From assembly GCF_900113675.1 (NCBI RefSeq), contig NZ_FOQE01000015.1:1-48132 (forward strand): a DNA stretch of 48,132 nucleotides. The letters run 5' to 3'. The position numbers were made by a program, and so were the translations under genes. How positions within the stretch are numbered: the first letter of the stretch is position 1; each line of letters opens with the position of its first letter. Of the stretch, positions 1 to 43,545 are shown piece after piece. Origin of the DNA: Pisciglobus halotolerans. Its GTDB lineage: Bacteria > Bacillota > Bacilli > Lactobacillales > Carnobacteriaceae. Below the pieces are notes generated by a model that saw only the letters and a list, made by a program, of their open reading frames with translations, was not told where the DNA came from and ran no database searches.

Positions 1-160
1 CGCCGCAAAGTTTACAGCAGGAAGGTCGATAGGTCAATTTTCCGTGTACTACCAGATATTCTTGATCCTTTTTCTTTTCCTTTGTAACGGGAACTTCAGC
101 TAATTGAACATTTGGGTCTTTAATATTGAGCAATTTTTTTATAGAATGAGTGTAGGCCAT
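1..160 (-). CDS. ISL3-type transposase, N-terminal fragment cut by the window edge
   Basis: The first 53 codons of an ORF start at ATG 160 behind an AGGAG ribosome binding site with 7-nt spacing and run off the window at base 1. The peptide contains LLNIKDPNVQL and then YRPSCCKLCG, which looks like the start of the N-terminal zinc-finger region of ISL3-family transposases. The gene lies just inside a candidate IS end at 284 and is read in the same direction as nox. The family is assigned from the N-terminal pattern and the end sequence only. The catalytic domain is outside the window, so whether the copy is intact cannot be judged. Confidence 0.72.
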   Translation of the reverse strand, partial: MAYTHSIKKLLNIKDPNVQLAEVPVTKEKKKDQEYLVVHGKLTYRPSCCKLCG

Positions 161-193
161 GTGAATTCTCCTATTCTTTTGTGTGGTAACTTA

Positions 194-222
194 ATTATAG
201 GAGTTCACTGGTCTTTTTTCAT
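194..222 (-). promoter_or_regulatory. Candidate transposase promoter
   Basis: A perfect -10 TATAAT (194-199) is preceded at 17 nt by the weak -35 ATGAAA (217-222). It lies inside the inverted repeat at 203-250 and upstream of the transposase ribosome binding site. Confidence 0.45.
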
Positions 223-250
223 TTAAAAACAAAAAATAGTGCCAGTGAAC
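203..250. repeat. Inverted repeat inside the IS end
   Basis: GTTCACTGG (203-211) and CCAGTGAAC (242-250) form a perfect 9-bp inverted repeat around an A/T-rich loop. It overlaps the spacer and -35 of the transposase promoter. Transcripts entering from nox would fold it, whereas transcripts starting at the internal promoter would not. Confidence 0.6.
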
Positions 251-284
251 CGATTGGTCCACCAACACTATATATTATAGAGCC

Positions 285-330
285 CACAAATCAAAGAGGT
301 CTGCCATTCTTTAACGGCAGACCTCTTTGA
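285..330 (-). terminator. nox intrinsic terminator
   Basis: A perfect 15-bp stem (291-305 with 316-330) has a 10-nt loop and lies just after the nox stop. On the minus strand it is followed by TTTGTG and then directly by the IS end GGCTCT, so the U-tract is short and ends at the insertion point. Confidence 0.8.
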
Positions 331-41648: not shown

Positions 41649-42296
41649 TTATTTTTTTGCATTAAACTGTGCTTCAACACGATAAATGCGATTCCCTCTC
41701 GAAGAAAATTTTTCTTCATATTCTGTCATTATATTGCCTTCGTAATCACTCTGGTGCAAGTCTAACCACACTTGTTTCAACAACATGCCATATTTTGAAA
41801 AACTAACCAACGAATATTCAAACAGGCCTTGGTTATCTGTTTTGAAATGAATTTCGCCATTTGGTATCAATATATTTTCGTAGACTGCGAGAAATGTTTG
41901 GTACGTCAAACGTCTCTTTTCGTGACGTGTTTTTGGCCATGGATCTGAAAAGTTCAAATAAACCCGATCTACTTCATTTTCTGCAAAATATTGCGTTAGT
42001 TCTCCCCCATTTACATGAAGCAGTTGGAGATTAGGTTGAGGATCCTCCACCTGTTTATCTAGCGCACTTACGATTACACTTGTTTGAAGTTCGATTCCAA
42101 TGTAATTGATTTCAGGATGCTGTTTAGCCATTTGGTAGACAAATTGTCCTTTTCCCATTCCGATTTCGATATGGAGCGGTTGTTTATTTTCAAATCTTTC
42201 ACTCCATCTGCCTTTCCATTCTTCAGGTTGATCGGGGATATATTGAGGATAAGAAGCAATTTTTTGTGGTGCTTCCGGCTTATTTCTTAAACGCAT
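41649..42296 (-). CDS. trmB: tRNA (guanine46-N7)-methyltransferase
   Basis: A 215-residue SAM-dependent methyltransferase forming m7G46. The motifs are [16 protein letters not shown] (SAM loop), [11 protein letters not shown] and [23 protein letters not shown]. It is normally next to ytmP; here a hairpin and the 282-bp element lie between them. A 5' leader hairpin is at 42362-42396. Confidence 0.95.
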
Positions 42297-42460: not shown

Positions 42461-42468
42461 CTTTATTG
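42461..42468. repeat. Target-site duplication, left copy
   Basis: CTTTATTG is identical to 42751-42758 and flanks the 282-bp element directly. Eight bases is the ISL3-family duplication length. Confidence 0.85.
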
Positions 42469-42750
42469 GGTTCTTCCTCTTTTAACGTTGGTAAAGAAAT
42501 TTCCTACGGTCGATGGGCTACTGATGGAAAGCCATGAGAACACATTGAGCCGAAAATCGCGTCTCAATGCTTGCAAGCTTCAAACTTAGTGTAACGGCTA
42601 AAGCCTAACACTAAGTGATTCACATTGCATCTTTTTTCATGACTATCAGTAGCCCTATGCGCCTCCTGAAATTTCTAGAAATAGGATTCTAACGAGTTTA
42701 GCATTAAAAAACTGATTTTTTTGCAGACCAACGTTAAATATTGTAGAACC
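42469..42750. mobile_element. Structured 282-bp MITE-like element with ISL3-type ends
   Basis: The left end begins GGTTCTTCCTCTTTTAACG and the right end, read inward, begins GGTTCTACAATATTTAACG; both continue TTGGT and match in 19 of 24 positions. A perfect 8-bp duplication flanks it. No transposase is present. Inside are nested inverted repeats: GAAATTTC (42496/42668), GGGCTACTGAT/ATCAGTAGCCC (42515-42525/42645-42655), CATTGAG/CTCAATG (42543/42563) and ACTTAGTGT/ACACTAAGT (42584/42608) around GGCT/AGCC. It is probably mobilised by an ISL3-family transposase such as the one at the window start (inference). Confidence 0.85.
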
Positions 42751-42758
42751 CTTTATTG
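42751..42758. repeat. Target-site duplication, right copy
   Basis: This second CTTTATTG ends one base before the ytmP stop codon (42760), so the insertion is immediately 3' of that gene. Confidence 0.85.
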
Positions 42759-42759
42759 T

Positions 42760-43545
42760 TTAGTTTTGTTGCAAAATCAACTGTTGTAAACGAATAATGG
42801 CTTGATTCATTTTATGAAATTTTGTTTCTTTATGATATTTCTTGATTTGTAATAAATCGTTCATTGCAGCATACCAAACCATTCGGTGAATCAGATCTTT
42901 CGACAATTCTTCTCCATAGCCTTCAAGCCAATTCTGCCAGTTTTCTTTTTTTACATATTGACACAATAACATCCCGAGATCCATTGCTGGGTCACACAGC
43001 ATAGCGGACTCCCAATCTACAAGATATAAGCGGTCTTCATCTGACAAAAGCCAATTTTTACGATCGATATCTCCGTGACAAACGGTCATTTTTTCTGTTT
43101 CAAGTGAAGGAAGAGTATTTTCCAATTGATACACGACCTCTTGCAGAAAAGGATGATTTCTCAGATCTAAAGAAAGACCATCTAAGTAGCTATCGACTAA
43201 GTCAACTGGATTGATGGTTTTTCCACCCACTCTTGTCAACATTCTTTTCAGTGTTTGCGAATGATGGATTCTACTCAGCAGTCCGGCAACTTCTTGAGAA
43301 GACATTTCATCGCTATGCAAAGTTCGTCCATTAAGCCACTCTTGAGCAGTCAAGACATCGCCATTTCCGATTCGTTTTGTCCATACTAATTTTGGCGTGA
43401 TGCCTTCAACAGAAAGCGCAGCTAAAAAAGGAGACGAATTTCGTTTCAGAAAAACTTTTTCTTCCTCTTTCGTTCCCATATAAGCTTGTCCGGTGTCACC
43501 ACCTATTGGATGCAGCTTCCATCCAGAATCGATTTGCAAATCCAT
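42760..43545 (-). CDS. ytmP: YtmP-like phosphotransferase (choline/aminoglycoside kinase fold)
   Basis: A 261-residue protein of the aminoglycoside phosphotransferase/choline kinase-like family. The catalytic loop is VCHGDIDRKNWLL and the metal motif is LYLVDWESAMLCDPAMDLGMLL. The substrate is unknown; a sugar or small-molecule alcohol kinase is likely, and nothing suggests drug resistance. It is next to trmB as in B. subtilis, but a mobile element sits 2 nt after its stop. Confidence 0.85.
   Translation of the reverse strand: MDLQIDSGWKLHPIGGDTGQAYMGTKEEEKVFLKRNSSPFLAALSVEGITPKLVWTKRIGNGDVLTAQEWLNGRTLHSDEMSSQEVAGLLSRIHHSQTLKRMLTRVGGKTINPVDLVDSYLDGLSLDLRNHPFLQEVVYQLENTLPSLETEKMTVCHGDIDRKNWLLSDEDRLYLVDWESAMLCDPAMDLGMLLCQYVKKENWQNWLEGYGEELSKDLIHRMVWYAAMNDLLQIKKYHKETKFHKMNQAIIRLQQLILQQN

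Follow-up and report, generated by a model that had tools for sequence, protein, structure and literature searches.

An ISL3-type MITE of Pisciglobus halotolerans with a folded core shared among Lactobacillales

Here we describe a 282-bp element (positions 42469-42750) that is, by its ends, an ordinary non-autonomous MITE of ISL3 type, without a transposase, and that bears both the signature of insertion and a folded core common to other Lactobacillales genomes. It lies in the window, the whole 48,132-nucleotide stretch of Pisciglobus halotolerans DNA analysed, which is the entire contig C78 of a 2.44-Mb draft assembly of 88 contigs. The element is probably a MITE moved by ISL3 transposases and carrying a conserved Lactobacillales module that is read as folded DNA.

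Structure, copies and insertion of the element

The features of the element are listed in Table 1. A first-pass annotation of the window had described 24-bp ends matching at 19 positions and an exact target duplication, and both stand. The same holds for the outer 11-bp pair with two further hairpins that it had outlined, the second hairpin having an inner GGC/GCC stem, and for the ISL3-type end that it had placed near position 284, which agrees with the right end of the element at 19/24 positions in a by-eye count. Its suggestion of an Enterococcus host did not hold: the family of the genome is Carnobacteriaceae, from the NCBI placement of related genera. On one side of the element is a methyltransferase gene (Methyltransf_4; 41649-42296, minus strand), and on the other an APH/choline kinase-type gene (42760-43545, minus strand) ends 9 bp from it. 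The left edge of the window (1-290, minus strand) holds the 5′ end of an ISL3-family IS, with the end GGCTCTATAATATATAGTGTTGGTG and a transposase start near 160; this IS runs off the contig, so that the contig break falls in a repeated IS.

Table 1. Features of the element and its target site, in window coordinates
Feature	Position	Strand	Detail
Left 8-bp target-site duplication	42461-42468		CTTTATTG
Left terminal inverted repeat, ISL3 type	42469-42492	+	GGTTCT...ACGTTGGT; 19/24 identical to right repeat
Outer stem P0, 5′ arm	42495-42503		AGAAATTTC; pairs with 42668-42676
Conserved folded core	42513-42658	+	Model R1 positions 1-147; 160.1 bits; covariation in A1
Stem P1a, 5′ arm	42515-42525		GGGCTACTGAT; pairs with ATCAGTAGCCC, 42645-42655
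Bulge between P1a and P1b	42526-42529		GGAA, 5′ side only
Stem P1b, 5′ arm	42530-42536		AGCCATG; pairs with 42638-42644
Hairpin P2	42543-42569		42543-42549 with 42563-42569; both-sided changes in 5/7 pairs
Stem P4, 5′ arm	42572-42576		TGCAA; pairs with 42625-42629
Conserved unpaired stretch	42577-42583		GCTTCAA
Hairpin P3	42584-42616		42584-42592 with 42608-42616; both-sided changes in 6/9 outer pairs
Inner stem of P3	42596-42605		GGC/GCC
Conserved unpaired stretch	42617-42624		GATTCACA; AATTCNCA in most relatives
3′ arms of P1b and P1a	42638-42655		
Outer stem P0, 3′ arm	42668-42676		GAAATTTCT
Right terminal inverted repeat	42727-42750	-	GGTTCTACAATATTTAACGTTGGT on the - strand
Right 8-bp target-site duplication	42751-42758		CTTTATTG; exact match to left copy

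The annotation had proposed a search for further copies and for duplications flanking them, and both are plentiful. A 26-base piece of the 3′ end, allowed up to three mismatches, matched 73 loci in the own genome, all of which were read; the reversed 26-base control pattern had 0 matches there. At 68 of the 73 loci both ends could be paired (L020, L098, L107, L110 and L112 gave no end pair under the thresholds used and are left out of these counts, yet L020 is a full-length match in the whole-element search). These 68 comprise 43 long copies (at least 250 bp, mostly 282) and 25 internally deleted ones, namely 17 of 135-142 bp, 6 of 99-109 bp, one of 165 bp and one of 202 bp. The total is a lower bound, as it starts from a 3′-end pattern: the covariance model R1 described below finds at least 52 cores in the own genome, at least two of them (C59:25850 and C87:51992; loci L374 and L375) outside the 73. 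The median divergence of long copies from their consensus is 2.9%, and that of the window copy 2.5%. Target sites are A/T-rich, and an exact 8-bp duplication stands at the boundary of 47/68 copies, with a one-base difference in 11 more; the left flank of one copy and the right flank of another agree exactly over 8 bp in 21/4,556 pairings.

All 17 copies of 135-142 bp are without the core. The 137-bp form lacks the stretch between CTACTGA (element positions 50-56) and CTCCTGA (195-201); because 12 of the 17 have one common deletion junction and 10 have exact boundary duplications, this deleted form has itself transposed. A form without the core has thus spread as well, and the core is dispensable for transposition in cis. 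The 100-bp form looks like the product of a similar deletion, between AGAAAT repeats. Two single loci may be recorded here: in a 137-bp copy at L090 (G000:C45:50700-51400) the inner segment is inverted between GAAATTTC arms, and L079 (423-488) holds a 66-bp element, scarcely more than two MITE ends, which adjoins an ISL3 copy.

A MITE with ISL3-type ends is a known kind of element, and the ends, duplication, shortness and copy number seen here fit it. A PF01610 search of the own draft genome brought up five ISL3 transposase pieces, whose end type differs from that of the element, and none that shares it. Four of the five lie at contig ends, and their end agrees with each end of the element at 15/24 positions. 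A resident ISL3 as carrier of the core was considered and dropped, as the own-genome pieces end soon past the gene and hold no core. Closer ends are found elsewhere in the same family: in G004 and G007 the ends of ISL3 ISs agree with the right end of the element at 22/24 positions on the transposase-5′ side and with its left end at 18/24 on the transposase-3′ side, and the G004 end continues with AAAGAA, like the element. More widely, the element agrees with the ISL3 ISs (PF01610) of G004, G007 and G103 in its type of end, GG(C/T)TCT...TGTTGGT or ACGTTGGT, and in its 8-bp duplication; in two ISs with matching ends (L346 and L347) the 8-bp duplications were read by eye. The element differs in having no transposase and in carrying a conserved folded module absent from the ISs with matching ends, L346 and L347 giving no match to the model. 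Judged by its ends, the element would have been moved by an ISL3 transposase of the G004/G007 end type. Such a putative DDE transposase would recognise GGTTCT...ACGTTGGT-type ends, move the element in trans and produce the observed 8-bp duplication at A/T-rich sites.

Distribution and settings of the core

A DNA search matched 10/18 genomes of the family, the own genome included, and in four of them the interior alone. We built the covariance model R1 from an alignment (A1) of 22 of 30 extracted rows, leaving out six near-duplicates and the decayed own copies L119 and L123; L077 and L078 had been dropped from the first core alignment for their large insertions. R1 matched 11/18 family genomes, with 71 cores in G009, 69 in each of G012 and G014, 47 in G007, 28 in G011, 25 in G016, 19 in G004, 11 in G013, 7 in G015 and 4 in G010. 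It also matched 38/395 Lactobacillales genomes in five families, often in multiple copies; in family f9, represented by four genomes, the matches are weak (best E 1.6e-4 to 9.9e-6). In a class-wide sample 3/398 genomes had a match, all three in Lactobacillales. In the genus of G378 the core is present in 1/22 genomes, and that genome has 35 copies. Patchy presence with high copy number is the pattern expected from a mobile unit.

Some names among the matches were set aside. The labels 'Streptococcus sp. 263_SSPC' and 'Carnobacterium maltaromaticum 757_CMAL' disagree with kinship and are not relied on, as a core of each has the same letters as one of G145 and one of G392 respectively; these two both belong to genus g16 of family f4, which from locus L189 would be the family of Aerococcus. 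Matches in Marinoscillum, Lachnospiraceae and Bacteroidetes look like chance and give no R1 match. Plasmid records gave no match for the element or for the two cores compared with them, one from G378 and one from G310, and viral contigs had 0 exact matches to the core pattern. Against Rfam the element gave nothing above chance on the core (one overlap, E 4.6 and 11.3 bits), and 20 relatives of the core gave no match at E 0.05.

The core is found in ISL3-type MITEs, in ISL3 ISs of two genera and in terminator-like stems. ISL3-type ends surround core copies, as read by eye, in the Carnobacterium-type genomes G009 and G011-G014 and in G004, G007 and G279. A 1,781-bp ISL3 IS of G103 contains the core downstream of its transposase gene; three compared copies of this IS are 99.8-99.9% alike, and an exact 8-bp duplication flanks all five with both ends read (L322, L323, L324, L331 and L348). 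On either side of the G124 core is an ISL3-type end; this core is upstream of an ISL3 gene, and no duplication was seen there. The different positions in G103 and G124 suggest that there are at least two places where the core inserted into ISL3 elements. The core of L344 in G378 was rejected as an IS-borne case, since its R1 match falls outside the IS end and so beside the ISL3 element. Many cores of G145, the genome labelled 'Streptococcus sp. 263_SSPC', stand, by eye, within variable stems followed by T runs, as in terminators.

Empty sites, a further check proposed in the annotation, did not appear in the locus comparison made, which set one 8-kb stretch with three cores against 7 genomes of genus g16, that of the query included. 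In G062, one junction (L361, corresponding to L212:2266) has a terminator stem that is already occupied by a broken relative, with what looks like another nested in it; at a second, the G062 match runs straight across the core.

Two arrangements of the core copies were also seen. At L077, L078, L322 and L350 the core has other hairpin repeats inserted into its P3 loop or linker, and those of L077, L078 and L322 carry a CCGTACGTCGC-like motif. At six G009 loci (L058, L066, L282, L283, L286 and L289) two cores stand in the same orientation with starts 239-264 bp apart, which suggests tandem duplication of the whole element.

The core is best explained as a separate, older unit common to several Lactobacillales families. 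Whether it also moves on its own account is a more tentative matter: we give a minor though real chance to a gene-free mobile unit of folded DNA, spread across Lactobacillales by a recombinase that reads its single strand and enters other hairpins. If so, terminator stems, MITE loops and ISL3 ISs, the last at different places, would be its targets, and the window element would be a hairpin-DNA parasite inside an ISL3 MITE, amplified by ISL3 transposases.

Paired changes and the strand of the fold

Folding of the element is strong in either medium. As RNA, positions 42461-42758 fold with a z score of -8.65 (0/200 shuffles as good); as DNA, positions 42469-42750 fold with z scores of -8.01 on the plus strand and -7.25 on the minus strand (0/200 shuffles each). 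The annotation had suggested compensatory changes in the stems across copies as a check, and across species they are abundant. In the 22 sequences of A1, 92.1% of cells pair and both-sided changes occur at 20/41 pairs, a covariation that 0/500 shuffles reach; with slid partners only 31.5-37.7% of cells are paired. In stem P4, which stands between two linkers, the second pair is G-C, T-A or A-T according to lineage. Some unpaired letters are held as well: AGCCATGG, GTCT, CAAGC-TCAAAC, GTAATTC and CATGGCT are among the motifs that are mostly constant in 85 distinct rows of alignment A4. Mean conservation is 0.78 in unpaired columns (59) and 0.76 in paired ones (82), and since unpaired columns are hardly more conserved than paired ones, the constant loops amount to a few motifs only. 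The 146-bp module appears to be kept as a branched three-stem structure with a handful of constant unpaired motifs.

Paired changes could in principle arise by mutation, if in a long quasi-palindrome template switching carried changes across from one arm to the other. The expected result would be Watson-Crick double changes that favour neither strand. The element is indeed a long palindrome, the inner segment of L090 is inverted between its GAAATTTC arms, and both-sided changes among the own copies are slightly above expectation (5 against 2.75). Arm correction is not fast, however, because the 43 long own copies show 5 both-sided cells (4 Watson-Crick, 1 not) against 152 one-sided, outer stems included. 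Non-complementary parts, namely the bulges and the stretches GCTTCAAA and AATTCNCA, have moreover been retained. We therefore regard a mutational origin of the paired changes as distinctly unlikely.

Selection on the pairs leaves the question of which molecule folds. In RNA stems, G-U keeps pairing and A-C breaks it. On hand-set structures the counts of G-U and A-C are 29/34 in A1, 15/19 in A2, 22/19 in A3 and 66/87 in A4, ratios of 0.76 to 1.16 from alignments that share sequences, of which A2, A3 and A4 were fitted to R1 and lean to its structure; the core of the 43 own long copies gives 46/40. RNase P of the same order, with its RNAalifold structure, gives 197/13, a ratio of 15 (this yardstick covers 30 of 40 matched genomes, those with loci). 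The difference between 66/87 and 197/13 is large (Fisher p about 1e-27), to be read with the fact that RNase P is single-copy with RNAalifold pairs and that neutral decay of most core copies draws the core ratio towards 1. Because single copies decay without selection, we also took the majority pair of each genome, which meets this objection in part. In 15 genomes there were 517 Watson-Crick, 2 G-U, 3 A-C, 14 other and 6 gapped majority pairs (60% agreement needed, others left out; G010, with one copy, and the own genome, absent from A4, excluded), against 197 G-U and 2,348 Watson-Crick pairs in RNase P (Fisher p 5e-14).

A functional RNA of one strand, small or cis-regulatory and carried by the MITE, is thereby made very improbable. 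The branched fold, strong covariation, invariant loop motifs and RNA z score of -8.65 would suit it, and in a free RNAalifold fold of 82 pooled sequences the antisense strand has 62 G-U and 29 A-C (sense, 29/51). This antisense tilt is not predicted by a strand-neutral reading, and it is mild and far below the 15-fold of RNase P. Against such an RNA stand the hand-set ratio of 0.76 to 1.16 beside 15, G-U at 2/519 canonical majority pairs beside 197/2,545 in RNase P, the lack of an Rfam match to the core above chance, and the orientation of the copies. Among 29 own copies with long flanks, classed by simple ORF calling, 8 are convergent, 8 tandem sense, 11 tandem antisense, 0 divergent and 2 unclear, so that tandem copies have no clear orientation bias (11 antisense, 8 sense). 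The suggestion of the first-pass annotation that the element may act as RNA, taken as one functional strand, thus lacks support on two counts, G-U being no commoner than A-C (66/87, unlike 197/13) and the tandem copies lacking a clear bias.

Watson-Crick pairing selected without a clear strand points to a DNA fold or a fold needed on both strands. The core might accordingly be selected as RNA on both strands, with the element landing either way in transcribed 3′ regions, for instance as a bidirectional insulator or RNase target. The same symmetry would result, because a G-U pair reads as A-C from the complementary strand; all 27 classable own copies lie 3′ of at least one gene with none divergent, and the window element starts 9 bp past the end of the kinase-like gene. 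The unpaired motifs held constant across families are not explained by this reading itself, since the two strands carry different loop letters, and we consider it unlikely.

The evidence points to a well-supported and unusual conserved fold that behaves more like DNA than RNA. On the favoured reading of the core as folded DNA, the module would extrude as a hairpin, from DNA that is single-stranded or supercoiled, and be read in that form, probably by a putative protein that recognises its unpaired motifs. Its carriers would be ISL3-type elements and, elsewhere, other sites; it may act at the DNA level in replication, recombination or the persistence of the element.

Likeness to known repeats and meaning of the fold

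Insertion of the EFAR repeat into stem-loops deletes most of the target. EFAR, of E. faecalis, may be the closest named element; it is reportedly about 170 bp long with two stem-loops and inserts into stem-loop targets (Venditti et al. 2007). By this description it resembles the window element in size and two-hairpin layout, and the relatives of the core that in G145 lie, by eye, inside terminator-like stems recall it too. The window element differs in having a clean 8-bp duplication and no deletion of a stem-loop target, and E. faecalis is absent among the named matches of the core search. Folded DNA is recognised in integron attC sites and in REP/TnpA-REP, to which the proposed reading of the core may be likened by analogy.

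BOX, RUP and SPRITE of pneumococcus are multi-copy, strongly folded small interspersed elements, according to the part of PMC3049150 consulted, and share this nature with the element by description, not by sequence; homology with BOX, which had been entertained from a likeness of two short motifs, was dropped. In the portions seen of three further sources, the name EfaR denotes a regulator and not the EFAR repeat (PMC6620374), EFAR is unmentioned (PMC2229807), and a 2024 MITE review mentions none of EFAR, Enterococcus, ISL3 and Carnobacterium (PMC10969869). The open literature yielded no paper on Carnobacterium MITEs or repeats, which is no proof of novelty, and for ISL3 MITEs no title naming such an element among the matches listed.

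In the usual view, a MITE consists of its two ends and hardly anything else; in this one, matched changes preserve a module without genes in several families, and a simple count of G-U against A-C separates its pattern from that of RNA. Calibrated on RNase P, this count could also be applied wherever it is disputed whether a folded repeat works as RNA or as DNA. If confirmed, the finding would define DNA folds under selection as a class open to testing in Gram-positive genomes, and would offer a route to the protein that reads them.
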